A DNA stretch of 64,000 bases from Acidobacteriota bacterium (lineage in GTDB: Bacteria; Acidobacteriota; Terriglobia; Terriglobales; Acidobacteriaceae). The DNA lies in contig JABCZL010000016.1 in NCBI GenBank assembly GCA_013289685.1, positions 1-64,000 of the forward strand. The letters run 5' to 3'. The notes below the pieces were generated by a model that was not told the DNA's origin, ran no database searches, and was given only the letters and a program-made list of their open reading frames with translations. The first letter of the stretch is position 1; the number at the start of each line of letters is the position of its first letter. Shown here in pieces: positions 1-14,149 of this stretch. The translations under genes and the position numbers were made by a program.

Positions 1-1375
1 GACTCTCCAGTTCATTCGCCTCGCGATGCATCCGCCGTGTCAGGCTTCGAAAATATCCTGCAATGGCGGGCTCTTGAAGTCGCTCAGTGTCGTCCCATGC
101 ATTGTTTCCGGCCGCGTAAGCAAAGACGGCCAGGAGCGGAGCCAGGGCCAAACCTTCGGCGACAGCGGCAGTCGGGACTACCTGCTCCCATTGTGCGAAG
201 TACGATTCGACCAACTTTGTTTCGACTGCTGAATCCGTTCCATTCGTGCGGCGTAGGTGTTCGAGCAAATACTGAAGGCTGAAAAAAGGACTCCCCACAT
301 ACGCCTCGGCCCAATCGAGGAACGTGCATCGAGCTGGCGAAACGATGATATTTCCGGGGTTGAGATCGAGATGCCCGAGCGTCTCAGGGATGCCCAGAGC
401 CCCGAATGCATCAAGCGCATTCTGTGTACGATCTCCCAGGAGAAACAGTTCGTCGCGACCGAGAGCCACCGGCGGCAATTTTGTCTGCCGTTCCATCAGT
501 TCCGCCATGCTCTCCATAAAGGGCTGAATTAGTTTGGAAAGCTCCGCTACGCCCAGATCGCGCGCACCAGCCCCGAGGATCCGGGCACCATGGTCGATGG
601 AGTCGATCTGCAATTCCGCCAGAGCCGCCGCTCCTCTTTGCCAGAGCACGTCTTCTCGTACTTCACCGAGAAGTTTTCCTGCAGCCTCCCGCGTAAGCCA
701 TCCATTCAAGTCTCGCCGGGTTGCCAGTACACTCGGAAGGTAGTTTGGGAAGAGTTGCGCAAGCGTACAGGTAATGAGAAATTCCTTTTGGTTGGGCTCG
801 CTCACAGCTTTGAACCACAGCGCCGGGCCGTCCGTTTCGAAGCGAACCAGGCTGAACGATGGGCTGGCGTTCAACTGGCGGACATTTCCGTTGAGATGGA
901 AACCCATTGGTTCGAGTACCGTCTCGACCCACTCACTCAGCTCCTTGAACCAGCCCAATCGTGCGAATGGGCCAGACGGTGACTGCCCTTCGGCACTACA
1001 TAGCGCAATCGATTGCTGGATCGCCAGGTAGTCAGAAGCACCAATCAATGAATCGTGGGATAAAGCTGAAATCGGAACCCATTGAGTGGGCACCTTAGGT
1101 CTGCCGTTGGTGCGCCAGTGTTCCGCGGCTTGATAGTGGGTACCGGTCGTATTCGCCGACGCCGAAGCATCCGGCTCGGCAAGACAGACGACTTCTTCTC
1201 CCCACTCTTTCTTGACCGCTGCGGTGAGATTCTCTGCCACTCGTTGCCAGCGCGGAATGTTCACGGAGGGTAGTGCGAATCGGTCGCCATTCGGCGCCAG
1301 GAGGACCTCGGTCCCGTTTTTCCCCAGCACGATGACGCGGTAAGTCTCGTACTCGTTTTTTTCTACAGGAGACAA
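1..1375 (-). CDS. APH-like kinase with Nudix-like N-terminus, truncated at window edge
   Basis: The frame is open from about 1375 to position 1, so the C-terminus lies outside the window. The C-terminal part carries a choline/aminoglycoside-kinase catalytic loop (GHLDLNPGNIIV, the HxDxxxxN pattern) near 390-355, followed by FLDWAEAY in the place of the metal-binding DxD/DFG segment. The first ~60 residues (VIVLGKNGTEVLLAPNGDRF, then an EEVVCL-like stretch) resemble a degenerate Nudix fold. The best start is TTG at 1375; no ATG or GTG is near the N-terminus. It begins 34 bases after the PqqD-like gene, in the same frame as that gene. Gene order suggests modification of a ribosomal peptide, because kinases occur in some lasso-peptide clusters, but the substrate is unknown. 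The kinase fold is confident; the pathway is inference. Confidence 0.72.
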   Translation of the reverse strand, partial: MSPVEKNEYETYRVIVLGKNGTEVLLAPNGDRFALPSVNIPRWQRVAENLTAAVKKEWGEEVVCLAEPDASASANTTGTHYQAAEHWRTNGRPKVPTQWVPISALSHDSLIGASDYLAIQQSIALCSAEGQSPSGPFARLGWFKELSEWVETVLEPMGFHLNGNVRQLNASPSFSLVRFETDGPALWFKAVSEPNQKEFLITCTLAQLFPNYLPSVLATRRDLNGWLTREAAGKLLGEVREDVLWQRGAAALAELQIDSIDHGARILGAGARDLGVAELSKLIQPFMESMAELMERQTKLPPVALGRDELFLLGDRTQNALDAFGALGIPETLGHLDLNPGNIIVSPARCTFLDWAEAYVGSPFFSLQYLLEHLRRTNGTDSAVETKLVESYFAQWEQVVPTAAVAEGLALAPLLAVFAYAAGNNAWDDTERLQEPAIAGYFRSLTRRMHREANELES

Positions 1376-1408
1376 TTTCCGCTCACATTTTCTTAGCCGG
1401 TCGCTTTG

Positions 1409-1666
1409 CTAGCGGTCTACGACTAGTTTGTGCTTCCACAGCGAGTCGATGAATTCGCGTAAATCGTTCTCGACGACTTCGCGGCTGGCGTTGAACTCGC
1501 GGCTGATCACATTCACGATGTCCGCTTCTGCTGACCCCTTCTCAAGAAGTTCGAGAATTCGCGACCCAACGGGATTCAGGTTGAACATCTGTCCGTGCTG
1601 GACATCGAGCACGATTGCACCATCCTGACCGTGGGTACTTCGAACTCCATCAGAAACTCTGTGCAT
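1409..1666 (-). CDS. PqqD-like RiPP recognition element (RRE) protein
   Basis: An 85-residue protein from the ATG at 1666 (MHRVSDGV...). It has the PqqD/lasso-B1 pattern: a short beta segment (GAIVLDVQHGQMFNLNPVGS) and then helices (RILELLEKG... VENDLREFIDSLW). In RiPP pathways such proteins bind the leader peptide and deliver it to the maturation enzymes. An in-frame TTG at 1771 would add 35 residues with no PqqD character; the ATG gives the usual family length of about 85-95 residues. Downstream is the kinase gene. The ABC exporter lies further upstream on the same strand, with one opposite-strand gene between them. Family assignment is good; the peptide class (lasso or other) cannot be settled here because cyclase and protease genes, if present, lie left of the window. 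Confidence 0.75.
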   Translation of the reverse strand: MHRVSDGVRSTHGQDGAIVLDVQHGQMFNLNPVGSRILELLEKGSAEADIVNVISREFNASREVVENDLREFIDSLWKHKLVVDR

Positions 1667-2004
1667 CGGCCTGCCCCACTTGGTGCGGTATATTTTTGAA
1701 TCGCGTGTGCCATACCTTGCCACCTGCAGCAGTGGAATGGCCACTGATTTGTGAATCTGTTCGGGAAACAATCGGACGTTTTGGAATTAGGTTGTCGCCT
1801 CAACGACATGCATCATTCGTGGCCGACTGCAGCAGAATCGAATACGTTCGCCTTCTGATCTAAATTTCTGGAAACACGCGTCCTCGCGGCGATGATTTTT
1901 TCGAGAAGGATAAAGTCAGAGTTACTTCAACAAGAATTGCACCGCGCGGAGCGTGTGCATCAGTCAGGCACAATGGCGTATTCTGGCCCGATGAGGAGAA
2001 ACAA
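1667..2004. other. Intergenic region between the PqqD-like gene and the leader ORF
   Basis: About 340 bases separate the divergent PqqD-like gene and the 23-codon leader ORF. Promoters for both directions should lie here. I see no tRNA, strong palindrome or recognisable RiPP precursor. A minus-strand frame reads KYTAPSGAGRC near 1690-1660, but it overlaps the PqqD start and lacks a convincing leader. Confidence 0.4.
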
Positions 2005-2076
2005 ATGAATGGGTACTATCATGTCAGCGGTAGGCGGATTCTCCGGCCGATTGGTAAATGCGAGCCAATGCAATGA
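2005..2076 (+). CDS. 23-codon leader ORF coupled to the next gene
   Basis: A short ORF reading MNGYYHVSGRRILRPIGKC and ending EPMQ. Its ribosome binding site, GAGGAG seven bases before the ATG, is the clearest in this part of the window. Its TGA overlaps the ATG of the following gene as ATGA (2073-2076), the classic layout for translational coupling. The following gene has no obvious binding site of its own, which suggests translation of this ORF delivers ribosomes to it. The peptide matches nothing I recognise; it may be a functional micropeptide or only a coupling leader. Confidence 0.45.
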   Translation: MNGYYHVSGRRILRPIGKCEPMQ

Positions 2077-2762
2077 CAAACGCCTCCGGGACCAGTGACA
2101 AAGCCTCAGCGGGCGACCCGATTCCTCCCAAGTGCTCCGTGATCGAGGTGCACGTAGTCGAATTGAAGCAATTATTCAATTCCATCGATCCTTCTCCGTT
2201 TCGCAACAAGGATCTGGACCCCAAGGCTGAGGAGTTCATTGTAGGTTGGGCCAAGGAGTTGCCCCGTGACGCAACGCTTGCTCTGGTGGTTGATCTCGAC
2301 CGGGAGGCCGGGTTACCCGACGAGGCTGCTGTACTACGCGAAGCGATTCACGAGTTCTTCAGTCAACGCGCTCAAGCATACGGACGGCGTCTGCGCGAAT
2401 TGTTCCGTGTGGGCCGGACCAGCCTTGTGATCGGGCTCGCAGCTTTAGCGTCGGCGATTGCACTGGGAGATTTTCTGGCTGCTTTGATGAAGGGCAGTCG
2501 TATTGGCGAGATCGTTCGCGAAAGCCTTACGATCGGTGGCTGGGTCTCCATGTGGCGCCCTCTCCAGATTTTCTTGTACGACTGGTGGCCGATTCGCAGT
2601 GAAGCTCGGCTTTCTGAGCGCCTCGCAGCGATGCCGATACGCATCAGATACACGAACGCCACAGCTCCCGATGCATGGAGAGCAGACTGGCCAGCGGTGT
2701 CGCCCAGAGGTGAACGCGCGAGCAGCGAGGCCCAACCGCGAACTCTAAATCAGGCAAGTTGA
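2073..2762 (+). CDS. Conserved membrane protein of unknown function
   Basis: About 229 residues from the ATG at 2073, which overlaps the stop of the 23-codon ORF; an upstream in-frame ATG at 2058 is less likely. The N-terminal ~100 residues look cytoplasmic and helical (KAEEFIVGWAKELPRDATLA...). One hydrophobic segment follows (SLVIGLAALASAIALGDFLA), then a second weaker one (SLTIGGWVSMWRPLQIFLYD) and the motif YDWWPIRSEARLSERLAAMP. I have the impression of a conserved but unnamed bacterial family and do not assign a function. It lies between two genes of the putative RiPP cluster but on the opposite strand, so membership in that pathway is unproven. Confidence 0.6.
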   Translation: MTNASGTSDKASAGDPIPPKCSVIEVHVVELKQLFNSIDPSPFRNKDLDPKAEEFIVGWAKELPRDATLALVVDLDREAGLPDEAAVLREAIHEFFSQRAQAYGRRLRELFRVGRTSLVIGLAALASAIALGDFLAALMKGSRIGEIVRESLTIGGWVSMWRPLQIFLYDWWPIRSEARLSERLAAMPIRIRYTNATAPDAWRADWPAVSPRGERASSEAQPRTLNQAS

Positions 2763-2898
2763 CCTGCGGTACTTCCAAGCAGCCACCTCGTCTCGCATAG
2801 TGTCGTGCCCTTTAGAAGTTCCTTACCATTACAGGCTGCCATTGGCTAAAAGCATCACCAAACGGCAGCCACCGCAACGCATCAGAACAGACAAGAAG

Positions 2899-4728
2899 TC
2901 AGCCCTTGTGCGGCGAAACGCCTTTCACGAAAACCGCGGAAACGACGGCTTGAGTGGGAACCAGTGCGTCTGAACCCAAGTCTTCCACGATACGACCATC
3001 GGAAAGCACGAGGATTCTGTTGAAGGCCGATAAGGTCGAAGCTCTGTGAGACACGACGATCAAGGTGGACGTAGAGAGGTAGTCCCTTACGTTCCGAAGA
3101 ATCAGAGTCTCCGAGGCAGGATCAAGACAGGAAGTGCCTTCGTCCAGGATCAAGATGCGCGGCTTTTGCAAGAGCGCTCGTGCAATCGCCAGGCGTTGGC
3201 GCTGGCCTCCGGACAATTGGCAGCCGTCAGGTCCAATGCGTTGATCGAGACCCTGTGGCAGCGCCACGACCACGTTGACTAGGTCAACCAGTTGGATTGC
3301 TTCATTCAACTCGCGATCTGACGCCCCCGGCCTGACAAAGCGGAGATTGGATGCAAGAGTGCCGTCAAACAAAACTGGGTCTCGCGGGACGTAGCAGATA
3401 TGACGCCGCAAAGTCTTGAGCTCAATGTTTCTGATATCCGTGCCGCCGACTTGGATCGATCCCGACTGCACGTCATACAGTCGCGTAATAAGTCTCGCCA
3501 TCGTGCTCTTGCCGGCGCCGTTCTCTCCGACGATGGCGATATTCTCACCCGCGGCGATTCGAAGAGACGGAATGCGAAGCACATTCTCCTGTCGTTCATA
3601 CCCAAACTCCACCTCCGTGAGTTCCAATCCCCAATGCTGGCTTGGGAACTGAGAGAATACTGGCGGATCGGTTATGCTCGGACGCAAAGCGCAAACCGAC
3701 TGCAGCTGCCGAATACTTGCAAACGTTCTCTGTGCTCTGGCATACAACTCCGCCGCCCCGCTCAACGGATCAAAGAGTTGAGTGACGAAGCTGTAGAAGG
3801 CGACCAAACTACCGAGGCTAAGAGTTCCGGTAACAACACTCCAGCCTCCATACCCGATCACTGCGGACATGGCGAGCACAACCGCTATGGAAGTCCAGAC
3901 GGTGAACCAGACCCCGGTCTTGAAGAGCGCGAGATGGGACCGGGTTGTCCGGGCCAGAAGCCGAAAGGCCTTTTTTTCTTGGCGCCTTTCCTGGCCGAGC
4001 AGTTGGATCGCGAGAATGGAGGAGATGTGTTCCTCGATAAAACTGTTCCATGCGACCAGGTTCCGCTGCACATCATCGGAGTCGGTCGATAGCTTCATGC
4101 GGAAATGTTGCCGAGCGATGAGGAAGAGTGGAACGAGAGGAAGGATGACCAGGGTCAGCACTGGACTCAGCACAAACATGGTTACGACCGTGAACGTGGT
4201 AGTCAAACACATGCGCAGGATCGACGGAAGGAGATCTGAGCCGAAGTAGGCCACCTCTTCGATCGGCTCCTTGAGCGGATACATCACCGCCCCGGGTGGA
4301 GTGTTCTCGTAGTAGTCGGCAGAGAGCTTGTCCAGGTGGCGCAGTATATCTATACGTAACCGGAGCGCCATTTTCTGCACGGCGTTTAGCGTTAGATAAT
4401 TTCCTACGCTTGTCAGGGCCGTCCTTCCCTGGTAGCTGAGGAAGATCAGGCCGGCCGCACATAGAAGCAATCCGGTCTCTCTTCGTGGTAGAACCTGGTC
4501 GATGAGCCACTTGAGAACCAGCGGTGTGAGGAGCGCAAGCAGGCTGCCCGCAGTCATGCAGAGGAAACTGGCAACGTGCAAAGGCACAAATGGTCGAATC
4601 TGCTTTGCCAGCCAGCGCAATTCACTCGGAATCTCTAGGGACAGAACGACCTCGCATTTTTGTGAACCCGCATCCGAGAGGCACTTCGGAACTGAAGCAT
4701 AGGGACTGGCACCAGCGATCGTCCACAC
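2899..4728 (-). CDS. ABC transporter, fused permease and ATPase (peptide-export type)
   Basis: A half-transporter with an N-terminal six-helix permease (from LRWLAKQIRPFVPLHVASFL) and a C-terminal ATPase containing Walker A GENGAGKST, signature LSGGQRQ, Walker B ILILDEG and H-loop SHR. No C39 peptidase precedes the permease. It most likely forms a homodimeric inner-membrane exporter; beside an RRE protein it resembles the D transporter of lasso-type clusters. The start is uncertain. The frame stays open to 5172, but recognisable permease sequence begins only near 4640; the GTG at 4728 is given here, and a CTG at 4644 or TTG at 4620 are alternatives. The upstream open stretch is proline/serine/arginine-rich and probably not translated as part of this protein. 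Confidence 0.85.
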   Translation of the reverse strand: MWTIAGASPYASVPKCLSDAGSQKCEVVLSLEIPSELRWLAKQIRPFVPLHVASFLCMTAGSLLALLTPLVLKWLIDQVLPRRETGLLLCAAGLIFLSYQGRTALTSVGNYLTLNAVQKMALRLRIDILRHLDKLSADYYENTPPGAVMYPLKEPIEEVAYFGSDLLPSILRMCLTTTFTVVTMFVLSPVLTLVILPLVPLFLIARQHFRMKLSTDSDDVQRNLVAWNSFIEEHISSILAIQLLGQERRQEKKAFRLLARTTRSHLALFKTGVWFTVWTSIAVVLAMSAVIGYGGWSVVTGTLSLGSLVAFYSFVTQLFDPLSGAAELYARAQRTFASIRQLQSVCALRPSITDPPVFSQFPSQHWGLELTEVEFGYERQENVLRIPSLRIAAGENIAIVGENGAGKSTMARLITRLYDVQSGSIQVGGTDIRNIELKTLRRHICYVPRDPVLFDGTLASNLRFVRPGASDRELNEAIQLVDLVNVVVALPQGLDQRIGPDGCQLSGGQRQRLAIARALLQKPRILILDEGTSCLDPASETLILRNVRDYLSTSTLIVVSHRASTLSAFNRILVLSDGRIVEDLGSDALVPTQAVVSAVFVKGVSPHKG

Positions 4729-5057
4729 AAAGCGCGCGCCGTTCGCCTTTCTCTCAGTTCTGTTTGAATCTTGTTGGAAATATGGGATCTTGCTTGAGAG
4801 GGATCGCCAGCCTGCTGTTCGCGAATTCGACCTACTGCGCGAGGGGAGACCAAGACTGGGCTCGTAAGCGGCGCTTGTTTCATTCTTCACGAAACGAGAC
4901 CGCCCCATATTTAAACGCATACGAGGATATTCTTCAGGCCGTAAAGAGGCAGCGCAAGGCCGCGAGGTCAAAACCGGACAACACTGTTGCCTCCGAGGCA
5001 ACGAGCAAACGTGCATAGCAGGGTCATCTACGTTGGGGTCTTTGCGGCCAAACCAGC
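4729..5057 (-). other. Intergenic stretch where a RiPP precursor would be expected
   Basis: This gap precedes the ABC transporter gene. It holds the open but non-homologous upstream part of that frame and a second overlapping frame starting ATG at 4883 (MKQAPLTSPVLVSPRAVGRI...). The first frame reads KNETSAAYEPSLG near 4880-4845, faintly like the Y-x-x-P-x-L leader motif of lasso precursors but one residue short. Neither frame has a strong ribosome binding site. I therefore do not call a precursor. Confidence 0.3.
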
Positions 5058-5669
5058 TCAGGGGTCTATTAAGCCAAACTTGTAGTGATCCAGAATTTCC
5101 CCCAACAACTTTACGTTGCGCGGGTCGCGCAATGAACCCCGTGAGGTGGTCCGAAAGACATCCCTTGGACATTCGAAAATTGCAAACGCCAACTTGGCCG
5201 GGTCATGCCGTGCCCTGTAAAGGATTCCGGCAGGCTTTGTGGGATGATTCCGCAGAGCCGCTGACCAGCGTTGCGCAATAGCATGCGACCCATCCATGAG
5301 ACGTCCGTCTGCGCCAATACGGGCCAGGCCGGCACTCGCCGACAGGTCAATCAGTTTCATGGATTCCATTACCTTCATTTCGGCGACGTATCTCTGATCA
5401 AGGTATGCCCCCGAGACAGATGGGACGCCGGTCACCTGTCCGCAGGTTTCAATGAAGCAGCAATATTCGTCTTCGCCTGCGTAGAGAACGCCGAAGCTTC
5501 CATCTGGAGCATCGAATCGGTTGTCTCCGGTTCTGCCGAAGTAGAGGGCATCGCGATCAGCCCGATAGAGGCGATAAACGACCGTCCCTTCTTCCAGCGT
5601 GTAGAGCACGGGAGACCGTCCGGCAAGATCGGCATGCGGTTCCGGATGCTCTCCCGGCTTGTCCGTCAT
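5058..5669 (-). CDS. RES-domain toxin (type II toxin-antitoxin)
   Basis: A 203-residue protein with the RES-domain layout: VYRLYRADRD (Arg33), the GRTGDNRFDAPDG segment, VLYAGEDEYCCFIET (Glu74) and the C-terminal LYRARHDPAKLAFAIFE. RES toxins such as MbcT destroy cellular NAD+. The ATG overlaps the stop of the upstream antitoxin gene as ATGA, so the two are translationally coupled in the usual antitoxin-first order. One oddity: where most RES proteins have Y-x-S-R-h near the end, this one reads YRARHD, with Ala153 at the conserved-serine position, so activity may be reduced. Family assignment is confident; catalytic competence is uncertain. Confidence 0.85.
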   Translation of the reverse strand: MTDKPGEHPEPHADLAGRSPVLYTLEEGTVVYRLYRADRDALYFGRTGDNRFDAPDGSFGVLYAGEDEYCCFIETCGQVTGVPSVSGAYLDQRYVAEMKVMESMKLIDLSASAGLARIGADGRLMDGSHAIAQRWSAALRNHPTKPAGILYRARHDPAKLAFAIFECPRDVFRTTSRGSLRDPRNVKLLGEILDHYKFGLIDP

Positions 5670-6580
5670 GCTGCTCCATGTTCGCCATAGCTTCGGGCCG
5701 CTCGCAACACATCCGATTGATTGCCGGCACGCAATGCTGCCGAAGGCGTGATTCCGCTCAGACGATCATTTGGATTCACGAAGAAAGCCAATTGCATCCA
5801 TGGATCGAAAGCCTTTAATTCTTGCAGAACCTCTTCGAGTCCTCGCAACGCCTTTCCATCTTCAAATTGAAAACACGGATAGCTATATCCGCGCTTTCCT
5901 TGCGTGAGGGCCACAAGCTGGTTCTGAGCGCGCCGCTTGTCGACAGCTTGACGTGTGATCCCCAACAGCTCCGCGACGCGCTCTGAGCTAAGGACCCCTC
6001 CCGCTGCCTCGACTAGCTGTCTCTTTCTTTCCAGGCCGCGGAATTTCGCGGCCGCAAGCGGATCATCCCCAGCTGATTCACTGGCTAAGGGGGAGGCGCT
6101 TAGCGCGTTTAAGAACACCAGGTAGTCCGTTGGAGCGGCTATTGCTTCGTTAATTCTTCCTTTCGACAGATCTTTCTCTAGATTCTTTACGACTCTCAAG
6201 AGTCGCGAAACAAAGGCTGGATGCTCGGTCTCTGCGACCTCTCGGAGAACTAAATCAAGGACCCGATGTTCAGGCCTTGCATGTGGCTCAATATTGAAGC
6301 ATATCCTCTGGTCTTGAAACTCCGTCCGCACATCGAATTGGTCGAGAACGACGGAGAGCCTATGTCTCTTGACTTGCAACGAGATGGTCCTTTGATCGAT
6401 CTCCACCTTGAAGTCCGTTGTGGGAGTCGAGAACAAGCACAATCGATTGGAGGATTTTGAAGGATGTGAAAAGCGAATGGGAAGCTCTGCTCCCTTGGAA
6501 ATGCCCTCAAACCAATCCACGATGTTCGCTTGAATCTGGTCCAGAGTGCTCGGATGGACGGTATCGGATACAGTGGACAT
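5666..6580 (-). CDS. Xre/MbcA/ParS-type antitoxin with long N-terminal extension
   Basis: A 304-residue protein. The C-terminal ~130 residues fit a RES-partner antitoxin: a helix-turn-helix (VLSSERVAELLGITRQAVDK), a GYSYPCFQFEDGKA segment and the toxin-binding domain (DPWMQLAFFVNPNDRLSGIT followed by ALRAG). The first ~170 residues are extra compared with ordinary 120-150-residue antitoxins and show no domain I recognise. The ATG at 6580 has a GGAGG site five bases upstream. An inverted repeat at 6592-6632 directly ahead is a likely autoregulatory operator. The extension could serve sensing or an added neutralisation mode; that is speculation. Confidence 0.8.
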   Translation of the reverse strand: MSTVSDTVHPSTLDQIQANIVDWFEGISKGAELPIRFSHPSKSSNRLCLFSTPTTDFKVEIDQRTISLQVKRHRLSVVLDQFDVRTEFQDQRICFNIEPHARPEHRVLDLVLREVAETEHPAFVSRLLRVVKNLEKDLSKGRINEAIAAPTDYLVFLNALSASPLASESAGDDPLAAAKFRGLERKRQLVEAAGGVLSSERVAELLGITRQAVDKRRAQNQLVALTQGKRGYSYPCFQFEDGKALRGLEEVLQELKAFDPWMQLAFFVNPNDRLSGITPSAALRAGNQSDVLRAARSYGEHGAA

Positions 6581-6632: not shown

Positions 6633-6894
6633 CATGCGGAAGGCCGGCAACGAATGTTCCGAGGACCCTCTTAAACAACTCATTTAAAACATATGTCGCA
6701 CAATGGTGCAGTTTCGGTCTGGCAATGCGTGATCGGGCCGACCAGCGAAGTAGCTTTTCGAAAACGAAGAGCCCAACGCAAGGTGTGCGCGCCGTTACCG
6801 GGCATCTGGCTGATGCGCTTTAGGAACACAAATTCAGGTACTCCGAACCGTGATGCGCCGATGCACTTTCCCTATTTGCTGAAAAGATCCGAAT

Positions 6895-8490
6895 TCAGGT
6901 CAGCCTTCGCACTATGGTGACAATCTTTCCAATGACCTCAGCATCTCGATTTCGGAATTGCTCTCGTCTATGTACTCCACCGGGATAGGAGTGAACGATC
7001 AGGCTGTTGTTCTCCCGGCTGCAGCACCCGCAGATATACGTTCCGTCACGTTTGAGAATCACGTACAACGGCTGCTGCCATAGCGGTTTCGAGCCGCAGT
7101 CGTTCGGTTTCTTCTTTTGTCGATTCACGACGGCGAGCAACCCACCCGCTAGGTATGGGTGGAAGGCGCTTCCTGTCCTGCCGATCCAGAAGAAGTCTTT
7201 CATGGACGGTCTGGCCAAACCGCTGAGCTCTTTCAGCGATTCCCGCAGAAAGAAAGGCACCCCGCGTAGCTCCGCTAACAGCTCCCCAATGAACCCCGTC
7301 CGTTCAACTTCATCTGTCCTCGCCGCTGTCTCAGCCATCGCCGGCAAGAGTCTGCCCGTCAGCAAATGTGGAATTGGTTCGTATCCAGAGTCCTGTAGTC
7401 TGAGATGCAAAGTCTCAAATATTCTGTGCAGATGCAGCGAATATGCCACACAGAACGTAACCATCTTGTGAAAGTGGCGCGGTGGAATGTTGAGCGTTTC
7501 ATAGTCGGACAGAGACCCGGGAGCCACAAAGTAGCGCTCATCCTCCAGCAGATTTGCGACCTCTCGACTGATCGCCGAGGCCGCGCGAAACGAAAGTCCC
7601 ATTCGCAGCCTAGCGCGGCGAAGGAGCGGACCCAGTTGAGACGGTTCGGGCGACAGCACTTCCGGCTTCCAGCGCTTTGCCAACTCTTTCGCAACAGAGG
7701 GTTGCTGCGGCCTCAGCAGACTGCGGATCTCGAGATCCACCACTCCAACGAGCCTGGCTTCTTCAGGAACTTTGAATTCGACTTGGGCATACGGCAATTG
7801 GGTACTGATCGTCGCAATCTGTCCACCTCCAACAGTTCGGATCTGGCAACAACAGAGTCCCTTTCCGTGCTCAATCAGGAACAGATCTTTGGATCCCTCA
7901 CCGCTGATCCGCCCGGCCATGTCTCCCTTCGTCTCGGGTCTTACGCGGACGATGCTGCCCGCGAGTAGTTCCGGGAAAGCAAAAGCATCCTGGGTGCCGA
8001 TTTTCGCGTACAAGAAGCCTTTGTCCTGAAGCTCTCCGAGCGAAGCCAGGCGTCGGGGTTTGGTCCACTCCAGAACCTGCGACAGGGGCACCACGCCGGC
8101 AGCAGAAGCACTGGTACCCAAGTTCCGAAGCCAGGGGAGGAACGCACCCGGATCGTCCAACGACGAATCCAGAAGGACCGTGCGTCTCGAAGGAAGCTGC
8201 AGCTGTAAGCGAGGGATTACCTCGACGTCGAAGCCGAAGACCCGTAACCAATCGGTGACTCGGTAATTGGAAATCCGGCTTAGCGCAAACACTTGAAAGA
8301 GGCTCGGGCTGAAGCTCCCATGACGGAGATCGTAATAGAGGTTGTGGGGTAGGTAATGAGGTGACGATCGGCCAAAGAGCTCCGCTGATCGTTGCGATGC
8401 CTTGTGCAGCGTGAGATTCTTGCTCGCCAGAATGGATTTGGCGCGTTCTGCAAGCTTTGTGTTCGATCCTGCCTCACTCGTGGGGGGCAC
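6895..8490 (-). CDS. Tandem-duplicated XRE + S24-like regulator
   Basis: A 531-residue protein from a GTG start. It looks like two copies of one architecture in a row. Residues ~10-90 form an XRE-like helix-turn-helix with the unusual insert HYLPHNLYYDLRHG. Residues ~160-240 resemble the LexA/S24 fold (KIGTQDAFAFPELLAGSIVR). Residues ~290-380 form a second helix-turn-helix (GPLLRRARLRMGLSFRAAS), and residues ~430-530 a second S24-like half (FFWIGRTGSAFHPYLAGG, ending DAEVIGKIVTIVRRL). The catalytic serine expected in S24 peptidases is not visible in either half, so autocleavage is unlikely. The divergent neighbour at 8923 is a single-copy relative sharing the PHN and DAEIIG signatures. Confidence 0.65.
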   Translation of the reverse strand: MPPTSEAGSNTKLAERAKSILASKNLTLHKASQRSAELFGRSSPHYLPHNLYYDLRHGSFSPSLFQVFALSRISNYRVTDWLRVFGFDVEVIPRLQLQLPSRRTVLLDSSLDDPGAFLPWLRNLGTSASAAGVVPLSQVLEWTKPRRLASLGELQDKGFLYAKIGTQDAFAFPELLAGSIVRVRPETKGDMAGRISGEGSKDLFLIEHGKGLCCCQIRTVGGGQIATISTQLPYAQVEFKVPEEARLVGVVDLEIRSLLRPQQPSVAKELAKRWKPEVLSPEPSQLGPLLRRARLRMGLSFRAASAISREVANLLEDERYFVAPGSLSDYETLNIPPRHFHKMVTFCVAYSLHLHRIFETLHLRLQDSGYEPIPHLLTGRLLPAMAETAARTDEVERTGFIGELLAELRGVPFFLRESLKELSGLARPSMKDFFWIGRTGSAFHPYLAGGLLAVVNRQKKKPNDCGSKPLWQQPLYVILKRDGTYICGCCSRENNSLIVHSYPGGVHRREQFRNRDAEVIGKIVTIVRRLT

Positions 8491-8922
8491 TGACGGACCT
8501 CTCGTCGCATCTTTCTCGCGAGAAGGTCCCCCCTCCAGCGCCGGTCAAAAGTCAGAGTTCAGCAGAAGCCACTGCAACCCGAACTAGATTTTCCGATCGC
8601 TCAATCTGCTCGCAGAGATTTGTTTCGGTTTAAACAGGTCGCCTTGGCGGTGTCACAAATATCTGCAAGTTGCCCGGAATTTCGGACAGGGGCATCGATT
8701 TCCGCCAAGAATAGACAGTTTCAGACAGTCGCCAACAGGGTTATAGGTGAGATCGTGGTCAGAAATCCGACCAGCTTGCTGCCAGTTAGTCTGATCGAGG
8801 ACTCGGCAATCGTTGAGAATACTCGAGGGAGTATTTCGGATTTCCGAACAAGACTGAATCCCTGTGGACAAAACGGCTAACTTGCGCCTAACATACCGCA
8901 ACGCCAACCTGAGCCGTTCCCA
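8491..8922. other. Divergent control region between the two S24-like regulators
   Basis: About 430 bases between divergent related regulators. It holds the two adjacent palindromes at 8818-8848, a short direct repeat (GACAG twice near 8712-8732) and the promoters for both directions. I see no convincing coding sequence here. Confidence 0.5.
8818..8848. promoter_or_regulatory. Two abutting palindromes, candidate operators
   Basis: AATACTC-GAGG-GAGTATT (8818-8835) has perfect 7-base arms. TTCGGA-TT-TCCGAA (8835-8848) has perfect 6-base arms and shares one base with the first. Both lie 75-105 bases upstream of the regulator gene at 8923. They are likely binding sites for one or both of the divergent XRE-type regulators. 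Confidence 0.45.
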
Positions 8923-9741
8923 ATGTTGGCCCTGCCGTCGAGTTCCGAAGCTGGTAAGCGTCTCCGCGCAAAGCGCGAGCGACGCCATTTATCCATTCGC
9001 GATGTCGAAAGATTCAGCCAACGAATCGTAGAGGAAAAGAAAAATCCGGCATACTATGTGCCGCACAATTGGGTAAGCGACCTCGAAAACGGGAAGTCCA
9101 AACCACGCCTCGCGAAGTTCCACAGCCTCAGCCTTATCTACGAATGCGATATCGGCGAGATCCTCGCCCTATTTGGGCTCAATGTCGGCGACTTGGATAG
9201 AGAAAAGGGATTGATAGCGCTGCCCGACACACACCTCGCCGGGCACGCCCTATCGCGGGCGAACCCGATTGTGCCGACATCTCTCAAATTGCAAGATAAG
9301 GTTCTTTTAGAACGGACCAATCTCGTTCGCCGAATGTTTCAGGAATTGGGTGAAATGCCTTTGTTCTTGGAACAGCAGGCCGGCATCCGCGACGTCCTTT
9401 ATGGTTACGTCGGGACCGAGGACTACACGCTCGATCCGCTGATCCGGCCCGGTGCATTCGTTCAGATTGATCCGCATCAAAACAAGGTCGTCAAGAACGT
9501 GGGGCCGAGCGAATACGACCGTCCCGTCTACTTTGTCGAGCTTCGCGACAATCGTTACGCCTGCAGTTGGTGCGACTACGAAGGGAGCCGCTTACTGCTT
9601 GTCCCGTCCCCCATGTCGCCGGTGCCCATCCGGTCCTTTCGTTATCCTCAAGATGCCGAGATCATTGGTCGCGTCACAGGGTTTGCGATGCTGATTGCCG
9701 AGATGCGCACAGATGCTTCGGCCACGCCTTCTCAACCGTAA
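8923..9741 (+). CDS. XRE-family regulator with S24-like C-terminal domain
   Basis: A 272-residue protein. The N-terminal XRE-like helix-turn-helix (AGKRLRAKRERRHLSIRDVE... VSDLENGKSKPRLAKF) contains an extended loop YYVPHNW, also seen in the divergent 531-residue protein. The C-terminal ~100 residues resemble the LexA/S24 fold (YGYVGTEDYTLDPLIRPGAF... DAEIIGRVTGFAML), but the catalytic serine position reads Glu-Asp-Tyr, so it is probably a non-cleaving sensor fold. A CSWCDYEG motif could sense redox or bind metal. It is the first gene of a same-strand run with OsmC, peroxiredoxin and DsbA-like genes, so a redox-responsive role is plausible. I saw no strong ribosome binding site at the chosen ATG. 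Confidence 0.7.
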   Translation: MLALPSSSEAGKRLRAKRERRHLSIRDVERFSQRIVEEKKNPAYYVPHNWVSDLENGKSKPRLAKFHSLSLIYECDIGEILALFGLNVGDLDREKGLIALPDTHLAGHALSRANPIVPTSLKLQDKVLLERTNLVRRMFQELGEMPLFLEQQAGIRDVLYGYVGTEDYTLDPLIRPGAFVQIDPHQNKVVKNVGPSEYDRPVYFVELRDNRYACSWCDYEGSRLLLVPSPMSPVPIRSFRYPQDAEIIGRVTGFAMLIAEMRTDASATPSQP

Positions 9742-9779
9742 GAAATTCGCGGGCCCTGCACCAATCGGGAGGTTAAGAC

Positions 9780-10217
9780 ATGTCGAGAGCGGTAACGGTA
9801 ATCGGTGGTTCATCTGGTCTGCGCCAAGGCATTTCGGTGGGTCCGCACCACCTGCTCGCGGATGAACCAAAGACTTCAGGGGGGAGCGATGCTGGGCCAG
9901 ATCCATATGAGTTGCTGCTGTCTGCGTTGGGATCATGCACGAACATGACTCTTCGTATGTACGCCGACCGCAAAAAGTGGCCGCTTAAGGAGATTCGCGT
10001 CGCCCTTACACATTCGAAGAACTATGCCAATGACTGCGTCAACTGTGAGCAACCGGCAGCAAAGCTCGATCGAATCGAGAGGCGAATTACACTGATTGGC
10101 GAGCTGTCCGCGGAACAAAGGCAAAGGCTTTTGGAGATCGCAAACCTTTGTCCGGTGCACAAATCGTTAACTTCGAGGATCGATATCCAGACTGAATTGG
10201 TCAACCCGTCCTTGTAA
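9780..10217 (+). CDS. OsmC/YhfA-family peroxidase-like protein
   Basis: A 145-residue protein with the OsmC fold signature: DPYELLLSALGSCTNMTLRM (Cys53) and ANLCPVHKSL (Cys124), the two conserved redox cysteines. OsmC proteins reduce organic hydroperoxides with thiols. Two further cysteines (NDCVNCE) are less usual. It starts 38 bases after the S24-like regulator on the same strand and is followed by a peroxiredoxin, so the run is probably one thiol-peroxide defence operon. Confidence 0.88.
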   Translation: MSRAVTVIGGSSGLRQGISVGPHHLLADEPKTSGGSDAGPDPYELLLSALGSCTNMTLRMYADRKKWPLKEIRVALTHSKNYANDCVNCEQPAAKLDRIERRITLIGELSAEQRQRLLEIANLCPVHKSLTSRIDIQTELVNPSL

Positions 10218-12858: not shown

Positions 12859-14004
12859 GTGAGGACGAGATATCAACATGGAACGATTGAATTGAAAGAA
12901 CGCGCCCGAGGTCCTGCACTCTGGCAATTCCGCTGGCGGGATAAAACCGGCAAAAGAATGTCAGAGGACATCGGCACAACGATTGAGTACAAAACGAGGT
13001 CCGCGGTTGATCGGTGTTCCAAGGTCGCGTACCTGAGAATGAAACTCAACCGTGACCAACCGGCAGAACCGGATGAGAGGTTTGGCGTTGTCCTTGAGAG
13101 GTATGTCCAGGAAGAGATCCCGAAGCGTTTCTCGACCAGGCATGCATACCTTTCCTACATCAACAATCACATCCGTCCCAAGTGGGGCGAATTCTCGCTA
13201 ACCCAAGTAAAACCGTTGGCCGTTCGCGACTGGCTCAAAGCAATCCTGGACAAAAAAGGCAAGCGTCCATTGGCCAGCAAAACGAGAGGCCATATCAAGG
13301 GGCTCATGCATCGGATCTTCGATTGCGCCATGCTGTGGGAGTACCTGCCCCCGGACCGTAATCCTATGTCTCTGGTGCGAATCGAGGGCAGTTCGAAGCG
13401 GAGAAGGAAACCGCGAATTCTCACTCCCGAGGAGTTCGCAATTCTCATCGCTTCGGTGGACCGGGAACCGTGTCACACCATGGTGATCCTGGCCCTCTGC
13501 ACCGGGGTGAGATGCTCGGAGTTGGTCGCTTTGAAGTGGAGCGATTTTGATTGGCAAAGCCTGTCCGTCTATATTCGCCGGGCGATCGTTTCCGGTCGTG
13601 TCGACGATGTGAAGACCGAATACTCGGAGGCGCCGCTGCCGCTCGATCCAGCGTTGGCAGAGGTGATTTTCGAGTGGAGGCGGAAGACCGAATTTTCCGC
13701 CGACACGGACTTCGTTTTCGCATCGCCTTTCATGGCCGGAGAAAAGCCCTACACACCCTGGAACATGCAACACAACCATCTGAGCCCGGCCGCAGTCAAA
13801 GCCGGCCTAGGTCCGATCGGCTGGCATACGCTTCGCCACACCTACAGGGCGTGGCTCGGAGACAATGGCGAGCCGCTCACGGTGCAGAAGGAACTCATGC
13901 GGCACGCATCCATTCAGACCACGCTCAATACGTATGGCGGAGGGATGATGGACTCAATGCGGGAAGCGCATGGGCGGGTGGTGAAGCAGGCGATGGCGCG
14001 TTAA
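12859..14004 (+). CDS. Tyrosine recombinase / phage-type integrase
   Basis: A 381-residue protein starting at GTG. It has an N-terminal arm-binding region, a SAM-like core-binding domain (FSTRHAYLSYINNHIRPKWG) and the catalytic domain with the full set of residues: Arg218 (CTGVRCSEL), Lys252, His323-x-x-Arg326 (GWHTLRHTYR), His349 (MRHAS) and the nucleophile Tyr359 (LNTYGG). It is therefore probably active. It ends 56 bases from the 3' end of a tRNA-Ser gene, the arrangement expected for an island integrated at that tRNA. Confidence 0.92.
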   Translation: MRTRYQHGTIELKERARGPALWQFRWRDKTGKRMSEDIGTTIEYKTRSAVDRCSKVAYLRMKLNRDQPAEPDERFGVVLERYVQEEIPKRFSTRHAYLSYINNHIRPKWGEFSLTQVKPLAVRDWLKAILDKKGKRPLASKTRGHIKGLMHRIFDCAMLWEYLPPDRNPMSLVRIEGSSKRRRKPRILTPEEFAILIASVDREPCHTMVILALCTGVRCSELVALKWSDFDWQSLSVYIRRAIVSGRVDDVKTEYSEAPLPLDPALAEVIFEWRRKTEFSADTDFVFASPFMAGEKPYTPWNMQHNHLSPAAVKAGLGPIGWHTLRHTYRAWLGDNGEPLTVQKELMRHASIQTTLNTYGGGMMDSMREAHGRVVKQAMAR

Positions 14005-14024
14005 TGGACGTCAGTGGACGTCAG
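14005..14024. repeat. Tandem 10-base repeat beside the integrase
   Basis: TGGACGTCAG occurs twice head to tail immediately after the integrase stop codon. Each unit holds the palindrome GACGTC. The location between integrase and attachment site suggests recombinase arm sites, but this is only positional evidence. Confidence 0.5.
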
Positions 14025-14059
14025 CCCATCGCTTAAGTGTTTTGAAGTCAATAAGATAC

Positions 14060-14149
14060 TGGCGGAGAGAGTGGGATTCGAACCCACGTTACCCTTTCGA
14101 GTAAACACGCTTTCCAAGCGTGCGCCTTCAGCCACTCGGCCATCTCTCC
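14060..14149 (-). tRNA. tRNA-Ser (anticodon GGA)
   Basis: A 90-nt serine-type tRNA with acceptor GGAGAGA paired to TCTCTCC, a long variable arm, the T-loop GGTTCGAATCC and an encoded 3' CCA. The anticodon loop TTGGAAA gives GGA, reading UCC/UCU. Its 3' end faces the integrase gene and is the probable attachment site of the island to its left. Confidence 0.95.

Follow-up and report, generated by a model that had tools for sequence, protein, structure and literature searches.

The left end of the window, the whole 64,000-nucleotide stretch of Acidobacteriota DNA analysed here, is likely to belong to an integrative island and to carry the exporter, RRE and kinase part of a lasso-type acidobacterial cluster, with maturation following the order of events proposed below. 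The kinase has two parts and probably phosphorylates one fixed Ser/Thr in the tail of the peptide, as judged from the precursor sequences of related clusters. What appears to be new is the association of this tail Ser/Thr with the kinase, together with a Lys placed 6–7 residues ahead of an acidic residue, both drawn from 96 non-redundant precursors.

Position 1 of the window is the end of contig C16 and the cluster is cut there. The kinase gene (3..1375, minus strand) encodes 457 of ~465 aa, with the 3′ end removed by the contig end. Beside it lies a PqqD-family RRE or lasso B1 protein (1409..1666, minus strand; PF05402, E 1.1e-16) of 85 aa from its ATG, although the ORF remains open to 1771 if a TTG start is used. 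Its top NCBIfam match is the lasso PqqD model NF033530 at 50.3 bits, under that model's cut-off of 70. An ABC exporter with fused TMD and NBD occupies 2899..5172 (ORF extent, minus strand), with the true start probably near 4.6–4.7 kb. It matches PF00664 (9.1e-29, residues 201–470) and PF00005 (2e-33, residues 535–680), has no C39 match in the Pfam search of the window protein, and has homologues in the clusters of relatives. These results confirm the original prediction of an 85-residue RRE beside an APH-fold kinase with a Nudix-like N-terminus, the latter through a fold model, and of a fused exporter lacking C39. A membrane-protein-like ORF (2058..2762, plus strand) lies between the RRE and the exporter on the strand opposite to both, with no Pfam match over cut-off and no counterpart in the clusters compared. 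Precursors between the exporter and the RRE were considered and rejected, as the small ORFs listed there look random and the precursors of relatives follow the cyclase.

The remainder of the cluster was not found in the source assembly. A search of the source genome yielded no lasso-type cyclase, but three weak Asn-synthetase-like matches of ≤28% identity (best E 1.8e-22, 28% identity). An oligopeptidase search returned nine matches of ≤37% identity, none starting <4 kb from a contig's first base, with distance judged from first bases only. The one exact tail variant searched, AYEADE followed by a stop, is absent from the assembly. There is also no second exact copy of the tRNA-Ser 3′ end, which has only two 2-mismatch places, both on contig C3.

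Relatives supply the missing half. Their clusters run RRE, kinase, prolyl oligopeptidase (in some), lasso B2 peptidase, lasso-type cyclase and precursors. Among 96 loci with a cyclase the commonest orders are RRE-kinase-oligopeptidase-B2-cyclase (36 loci) and RRE-kinase-B2-cyclase (18 loci). The oligopeptidase is encoded in many clusters, is once fused to the kinase, and retains the conserved residues Ser, Asp and His. The cyclase SGGxDS motif is present in 99 of 100 copies. The protease and cyclase sought left of position 1, where the contig ends, have counterparts in relatives: locus L022, whose kinase is 81% identical to that of the window, has Transglut_core3 and Asn_synthase matches. At L029, B2 scores 79.4 bits (lasso-B2 cut-off 33) and the cyclase 265 bits, under the lasso-cyclase cut-off of 525, and precursors and an isopeptidase homologue come next. 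With B2, cyclase, precursors and isopeptidase all present in relatives, the lasso reading of the cluster is supported, as had been suggested of a lasso or related RiPP pathway. Genes for a TonB receptor and for an isopeptidase resembling AtxE2 face these clusters; the adjacent isopeptidase homologues may be read as indirect support for a threaded topology.

The pairing of RRE and kinase, at first thought unusual, is routine in Acidobacteria, and one example has already been printed as a gene-table entry (PMC9064862). Relatives contain 69 pairs with the RRE directly upstream of the kinase. Among loci fetched by kinase similarity, 31 of 35 full-length kinases share their strand with an RRE no more than 3.5 kb away; the remaining four stand apart, with no RRE, B2 or cyclase within 3.5 kb. 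Because 31 of 35 kinases lie near an RRE, the objection that kinase homologues might never occur near RREs is contradicted.

A structure model of the window kinase gives a Nudix fold at the N-terminus and an APH fold at the C-terminus, whereas Pfam finds solely APH, with E up to 1. Matches in a sequence search of solved structures are marginal only, the best being a hygromycin-B kinase (E 0.014). Structure comparison places antibiotic-modifying kinases among the close folds, with neighbours that include amicoumacin kinase, corramycin phosphotransferase and aminoglycoside phosphotransferases. TvaE (8jsu), which is APH-like and comes from a different RiPP pathway, is also among the matches. The APH-type features are present (catalytic loop H335-D337-N342, metal D354, ATP K189), and K189, E198, D337, N342 and D354 are invariant across 34 homologues. 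HxDxxxxN is kept in 66 of 77 full-length relatives. Six of the other 11 have a His-less D....N loop, and five (L120, L132, L142, L169, L171) have no D....N-type loop by regex, so some copies may be inactive. The window kinase shows no P-loop motif of the HPr-kinase type (His, Gly, Lys, Ser, Asp, Asp). The Nudix box, GX5EX7REUXEEXGU, is not intact: on inspection of the alignment R42 and K56 occupy its Gly and Arg positions, while Glu 48, 57, 60 and 61 are present, several of them lost in L026–L028. The suggestion of a new kind of tailoring enzyme is fair insofar as an APH fold is fused to a Nudix fold, against the HPr-kinase-type motif of the lasso kinases in the literature compared.

The pattern used to recognise candidate precursors (118 from 108 loci) demanded Y..P/T close to the start, a stretch resembling a ribosome site and a location behind a cyclase. 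Some loci were picked by cyclase similarity and others by kinase, with duplicates (L157, L158, L162, L105) dropped. The truncated loci L111 and L130 were left out, as was L101, and 13 tail-less precursors were set aside; merging near-identical cores then reduced 102 precursors to 96. A precursor counts as having a kinase if a kinase ORF (E <1e-15) lies on the same strand ≤9 kb from the cyclase, which gives 76 precursors from 61 loci with and 20 from 13 loci without. At L089, L090 and L091 no RRE was found nearby either. Relatives carry one to four precursor genes with a YxxPx[LIV] leader after the cyclase, although agreement at YxxP/T is not independent, being part of the search pattern; no such gene is visible in the window. 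The residue at −2 was not imposed by that pattern, and Ile/Val stands there in register in 90 of the 96. Gly, Ser or Ala directly follows the predicted cut in 67.

Four residues before the tail Tyr (Y-4), Ser/Thr occurs in 68 of 76 precursors with a kinase and 3 of 20 without. At Y-4 or Y-5 the counts are 76/76 and 3/20 (Fisher 3.7e-16, phylogenetically uncorrected), a criterion broadened after the eight Y-5 exceptions were known. Elsewhere Ser/Thr is found at Y-3 in 15/76 vs. 1/20, at Y-5 in 28/76 vs. 0/20 and at Y-6 in 5/76 vs. 0/20. In a second set, Ser/Thr occupies Y-4 in 74 of 75 precursors, but the set is biased in favour of Ser/Thr and Asp, since both columns were part of the profile that retrieved it. 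It was taken from 782 precursor-like proteins matching the profile, 75 being kept of the 120 listed after 25 redundant and 20 first-set-like sequences were dropped. The three kinase-less precursors with Ser/Thr at the site come from L088, L090 and L094. Conversely, L091 has an oligopeptidase, but no kinase or RRE was found there, and its two precursors with AYQADE tails lack the site Ser/Thr. Conservation of this Ser/Thr and its co-occurrence with the kinase make it the candidate phosphosite. The Tyr is not an obvious target, because a precursor with a kinase at L156 has Phe in its place. The AYxxDE tail as a kinase tag was rejected, since YxxDE-, DWE- or PEE-type tails also occur in clusters without a kinase.

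The association could instead reflect inherited history, with a kinase lineage sharing a tail motif rather than recognising a substrate, which is considered quite unlikely. Kinase presence changes six times on the cyclase tree and provides four independent pairs; Ser/Thr follows the kinase in a mean of 2.8 of these and the opposite is never seen, but four pairs cannot reach significance in a sign test. However, Ser/Thr persists within otherwise highly variable cores, and a comparable contrast is missing at most neighbouring positions, such as Y-3 and Y-6. L036, with a kinase and Thr, is sister to L092, L112, L113 and L115, which lack both kinase and Ser/Thr, although L094 of the same group keeps its Ser. 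The correlation with Ser/Thr would also be expected if the kinase were a self-resistance enzyme that silences the mature peptide in the producer, like antibiotic kinases, and did not act on the linear precursor. Its fold neighbours fit such a role, and for triculamin and lariocidin self-resistance is achieved by Lys acetylation (PMC13352647). This reading is nonetheless judged unlikely, as the kinase gene usually lies directly behind the RRE and ahead of B2 or the oligopeptidase, and the precursor is the substrate of characterised lasso kinases (PMC10368454, PMC9266682). Far less probable is that phosphorylation is the first half of Ser/Thr dehydration, followed by elimination, the route put forward for KinCD in the case of kintamdin. 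The KinD/KinC precedent (PMC9415263) and the structural match to TvaE agree with this, but no lyase is among the annotated neighbours at representative loci.

The textbook lasso ring joins the α-amine of the first residue to an acid at position 7–9. Here, a Lys precedes an Asp/Glu by 6–7 residues in 91 of 96 precursors (shuffled mean 16.4), and that acid lies 8–17 residues past the predicted leader cut, against the canonical 7–9. The Lys-to-acid distance varies less than the cut-to-acid distance (SD 0.59 vs. 1.57), although the Lys was chosen by its spacing to the acid and the shuffle control is the fairer test. The segment ahead of the Lys varies freely in length. This suggests a Lys-to-Asp/Glu ring. 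By our count, with Asp its size would be 26 atoms at spacing 6 and 29 at spacing 7, the same as in 8- and 9-residue Glu lassos. It is tentatively proposed that a large group of acidobacterial lasso-type cyclases joins the ε-amine of an internal Lys to the Asp/Glu 6–7 residues downstream, leaving the N-terminal extension free in a two-tailed, possibly threaded peptide whose tail the Nudix-APH kinase phosphorylates. Asp versus Glu compensating the ring spacing was rejected (16 Glu and 82 Asp at 6, 5 Glu and 60 Asp at 7; p 0.15). The oligopeptidase as the cause of Lys conservation was likewise rejected, as the Lys is kept without it, although its presence goes with a small increase in the distance from cut to acid (medians 11 vs. 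10; p 0.0003, kinship uncorrected).

Extra N-terminal trimming could make the Lys residue 1, with its α-amine closing a 7- or 8-residue ring. The acid would then fall at canonical positions, and many clusters encode an additional peptidase. This is rather unlikely, however: the 6–7 spacing is kept in 20 of 21 precursors with a kinase and no oligopeptidase, the residues ahead of the Lys are not conserved while the Ile/Val(−2) register is maintained, and Asp with spacing 6 would give a ring of only 22 atoms by our count. An ordinary N-terminal ring, mostly of 9–15 residues with the Lys conserved for another reason, is also rather improbable. The usual lasso first residues do follow the cut, and 25 of the 96 tail-bearing precursors have an acid at core position 7–9, yet characterised rings have 7–9 residues (PMC13352647; PMC9266682), and the Lys-to-acid distance is the tighter one. 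Among the tail-bearing precursors any Asp/Glu at 7–9 is confined to these 25; of 14 other precursor rows, 10 have an acid at 7 or 8 and look canonical.

In the proposed order of events, the RRE would bind the leader of a 42–52 aa precursor at Y(−17)xxP(−14)x[LIV](−12); the register is visible in the sequences, and binding is expected by analogy with BsfB1 and further B1 proteins of lasso clusters. The Nudix-APH kinase, brought in or assisted by the RRE, would then phosphorylate the Ser/Thr that precedes the tail Tyr by 4–5 residues (motif [ST]xx[AGS]YxxDE), and B2 would cleave after [IV](−2)[QEK](−1), as the conserved register suggests. The Asn-synthetase-like cyclase would activate the Asp/Glu, the ring most likely being closed from the conserved Lys 6–7 residues upstream. 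The ABC protein would export the product. Speculatively, the charge of the phosphate could help to lock a threaded tail in place; the predicted phosphosite is most often 7–9 residues past the ring acid. Judging by their families, the TonB receptor and isopeptidase may permit re-uptake and opening.

No study of an APH-type lasso kinase and no description of a Lys-closed lasso ring was found in the open-licence literature searched. Should the prediction for the kinase prove right, lasso biosynthesis would have recruited another kinase fold, unrelated to the first, with a target site readable from sequence in many soil-bacterial precursors. If the Lys reading is true, the textbook ring definition would miss a whole group of clusters, mining rules demanding an acid at 7–9 would mis-score their precursors, and a cyclase using side-chain amines would be a new peptide macrocycle tool.

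The closest published cluster is BGC 482.1, from a soil metagenome, which has the same kind of cluster and gene order as the relatives: B1, a 1404-bp kinase gene, B2, cyclase, two 141-bp precursor genes and a 2118-bp gene (PMC9064862). Its kinase, annotated as 'aminoglycoside phosphotransferase family protein', is only a table label in the parts of that source seen, the word kinase occurring a single time in the text, with site, fold and ring analysis absent there, and its −2 residue is given as Leu and Ser (PMC9064862). In the Bradymonas bsf cluster a precursor kinase is likewise aided by a stand-alone RRE: BsfK acts together with BsfB1 to phosphorylate the lasso precursor ahead of leader removal (PMC10368454). 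The leader there has Tyr(−17), Pro(−14) and Leu(−12) as well as Ile(−2), and the same study already reported Ile/Val(−2) for precursors of Acidobacteriaceae (PMC10368454). However, BsfK has an HPr-type P-loop and targets ring Ser3 (PMC10368454), unlike the APH and Nudix folds and predicted tail site here. The paeninodin-type kinases PadeK, ThcoK, SyanK and PsmK also phosphorylate lasso precursors, but use a His-Lys-Asp-Asp catalytic motif on a C-terminal Ser (PMC9266682), whereas the site predicted here is internal, in peptides that nearly all have DE or a similar ending. KinD and TvaE share the APH-like fold or phosphotransferase annotation and a place in RiPP maturation, but they work towards dehydration or AviCys formation alongside a lyase or decarboxylase, neither of which was seen among the representative neighbours annotated here, and TvaE is described as inactive. 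A Lys ε-amine takes part in an isopeptide bond in lariocidin B, although this bond, from K2 to the C-terminal R17, is additional and the ring proper is N-terminal (PMC12427821).

Further into the window lie a large HTH-like regulator of 531 aa (6895..8490, minus strand; homologue group C1/HTHa, Pfam HTH_31 only at E 0.11) and its partner, a divergent 272-aa HTH regulator (HTHb; 8923..9741, plus strand; HTH_31 1.5e-4, under the gathering score). Homologues of the 531-aa protein adjoin many of these lasso clusters.

Comparison of loci shows that one conserved cluster surrounds the relatives of the kinase. Representative loci encode an S9 prolyl oligopeptidase and a TonB-type outer-membrane protein (both by annotation), a Transglut_core3/lasso B2 leader peptidase (79.4 bits, cut-off 33), an Asn-synthetase-like cyclase whose best NCBIfam match is the lasso cyclase (265 bits, cut-off 525), and an isopeptidase best matched by the AtxE2 family (171.6, cut-off 400); locus L036 also carries an annotated anti-sigma factor and sigma factor. 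With B2, cyclase and isopeptidase present in these loci, the lasso pathway guessed in the original prediction proved right. The B2, cyclase and precursor of the window copy itself were not found in its assembly.

The kinase is present in 73 of 96 cyclase-bearing loci, many of which were selected for kinase or cyclase. The two most frequent gene orders among the 96 are RRE-kinase-oligopeptidase-B2-cyclase (36 loci) and RRE-kinase-B2-cyclase (18 loci). The cyclase comes first and the kinase after it in L107-L110, and L043 has a kinase fragment after the cyclase. Within 3.5 kb and on the same strand, the 35 full-length kinases of the kinase-fetched loci are accompanied by RRE in 31 cases, B2 in 29 and cyclase in 27, with all three absent in four; further kinase matches sat in cyclase-fetched loci. 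Kinase homologues without RRE, B2 or cyclase at this distance and strand occur in L041, L170, L171 and L174, and a second copy on the same contigs sits in a lasso cluster (L040, L154, L121). A motif search finds no catalytic-loop Asp in the homologues of L120, L132, L142, L169 and L171, which are possibly inactive copies.

Candidate precursors in the relatives are small ORFs between the cyclase and the convergent isopeptidase gene, preceded by ribosome-site-like stretches. The 96 precursors are 42-52 aa long and typically read M-x-Y-x-K-P-E-[LIV]...[IV]-[QEK], a variable core, and the tail [ST]xx[AGS]Y-x-x-D-E. Measured between Tyr and the Ile/Val-Gln pair, the leader register is Tyr(-17), Pro(-14), hydrophobic(-12) and Ile/Val(-2), counted from the predicted cut. 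Excerpts of PMC10368454 establish the same register for BsfA, and its authors had reported Ile/Val(-2) in Acidobacteriaceae precursors. Position -2 of the 96 is occupied by I (72), V (18), Q (5) or H (1). Three precursor-like peptides (P0143, P0173, P0177) are assigned to a Halobacteriota archaeon MAG; their contigs are possibly misbinned bacterial sequence.

Precursors were divided by the presence of a kinase gene close to the cyclase and on its strand (76 precursors from 61 loci with kinase, 20 from 13 loci without), and Ser/Thr was scored by position from the conserved tail Tyr. Four residues before it (Y-4), Ser/Thr occurs in 68/76 with kinase vs 3/20 without, and all eight kinase-associated exceptions carry Ser/Thr at Y-5. 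Combining both positions gives 76/76 vs 3/20 (Fisher 3.7e-16, a value with no phylogenetic correction and a window widened post hoc). Y-5 alone gives 28/76 vs 0/20, Y-2 is weakly reversed (6/76 vs 5/20), and the contrast is not significant at Y-1, Y-3 and Y-6 to Y-9. A second set, 75 non-redundant peptides among 120 listed of 782 profile-search matches, has Ser/Thr at Y-4 in 74/75, a figure biased upwards as the profile includes that column. The sole exception, P0232, has an AYDLDE tail preceded by FNP, a feature shared with L112 and L113, both loci with no kinase found. On a cyclase tree (quick method, 97 rows) kinase state changes just 6 times, giving 4 independent pairs; Ser/Thr tracks the kinase in 2.8 of 4 on average and never runs opposite, at a sample size where the sign test cannot reach 0.05. 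Retention of Ser/Thr without kinase in L088, L090 and L094 likewise counts against a kinase target. Nonetheless, the sequence pattern suggests Ser/Thr at Y-4 or Y-5 as the likely target. The lasso kinases described in excerpts of PMC9266682 and PMC10368454 have an HPr-kinase-type motif in common and phosphorylate the C-terminal Ser or Ser3; the predicted site would therefore be new, and so would the fold.

The core holds a second regularity. Between predicted cut and tail, 91/96 precursors have a Lys followed 6 or 7 residues on by Asp/Glu, against a mean of 16.4 (sd 3.5, maximum of 1000 = 28) in shuffled regions. Spacings of 8, 9 and 10 are also raised (15, 15 and 17 vs 7.5, 6.7 and 5.9 expected), and the remaining ones are close to or under expectation. 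The five precursors lacking the 6-7 spacing have spacing 8 (L088, L089, L090, L131) or 5 (L142). The second set gives 72/75 at 6-7 (shuffled mean 14.3) and 75/75 at 6-8 (19.0).

Structurally characterised lasso rings comprise 7, 8 or 9 residues with the N-terminus as nucleophile, according to excerpts of a 2026 review (PMC13352647). The acid picked by the Lys spacing lies 8-17 residues past the predicted cut (mode 11), and any acid at the canonical 7-9 occurs in only 25/96 precursors. Tail-less precursors of related clusters look canonical, with ten rows having the acid at 7 or 8 (L043, L096, L097, L098, three in L099, L101, L116, and L039 in its second cluster). Four further tail-less rows were kept out of this comparison. 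Acids occur at 7, 12, 13 and 15 in L091, where a Lys precedes those at 12 and 13 by 6-7 residues; the rows of L119, L138 and L147 seem to be spurious or degraded. By our calculation, a ring from Lys-epsilon to Asp contains 3n+5 atoms; n = 7 gives 26 and n = 8 gives 29, equal to 8- and 9-residue Glu lasso rings (3n+2). The spacing could also reflect trimming that leaves Lys as the N-terminal residue, or large rings in which Lys is kept for another reason; N-terminus-to-acid rings with the acid at 10 or beyond would exceed 30 atoms. Spacing and atom counts fit a Lys-closed ring. The kinase-less loci L086-L090 have two or more cyclase ORFs in tandem and DWE-type precursor tails, and their tandem cyclases perhaps perform two ring-forming steps.

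Ser532, Asp615 and His650 of the oligopeptidase (L029 numbering) are conserved in 100, 100 and 98% of 50 aligned copies and are presumed to form its catalytic triad. The enzyme is absent from the clusters of 21/76 precursors with kinase, all of which keep Ser/Thr at Y-4 or Y-5, and 20/21 the 6-7 Lys spacing. As both features persist there, the oligopeptidase is dispensable for them. In L039, kinase and oligopeptidase are fused in a 1141-aa ORF (6733-10158, minus strand), with both domains confirmed by Pfam.

This cluster type is in print as BGC 482.1 (B1, Kinase, B2, C, A1, A2), whose kinase is entered in excerpts of PMC9064862 as 'aminoglycoside phosphotransferase family protein' and labelled Kinase. 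Excerpts of the open-licence literature searched yielded no study, fold assignment or site for an APH-type lasso kinase, and no Lys-ring proposal. The cluster is therefore regarded as a variant rather than a new kind; a Lys ring, if real, would go beyond such variation. Lariocidin B, as described in excerpts of PMC12427821, is a lasso peptide in which a Lys epsilon-amine does take part in an isopeptide, but there the bond is additional.

In the window, a membrane-like ORF on the opposite strand (2058-2762) between RRE and exporter has no counterpart among the compared clusters. Between exporter and HTH regulators lie a RES-domain protein (5058-5669; PF08808, 5e-12) and an overlapping protein (5666-6580) with sub-threshold Xre/MbcA/ParS-like matches, a probable toxin-antitoxin pair. 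At 12859-14149, a tyrosine integrase immediately adjoins tRNA-Ser(gga). Beyond these are housekeeping genes, two TldD/PmbA-type and CTP synthase, which places the lasso part on the island side.
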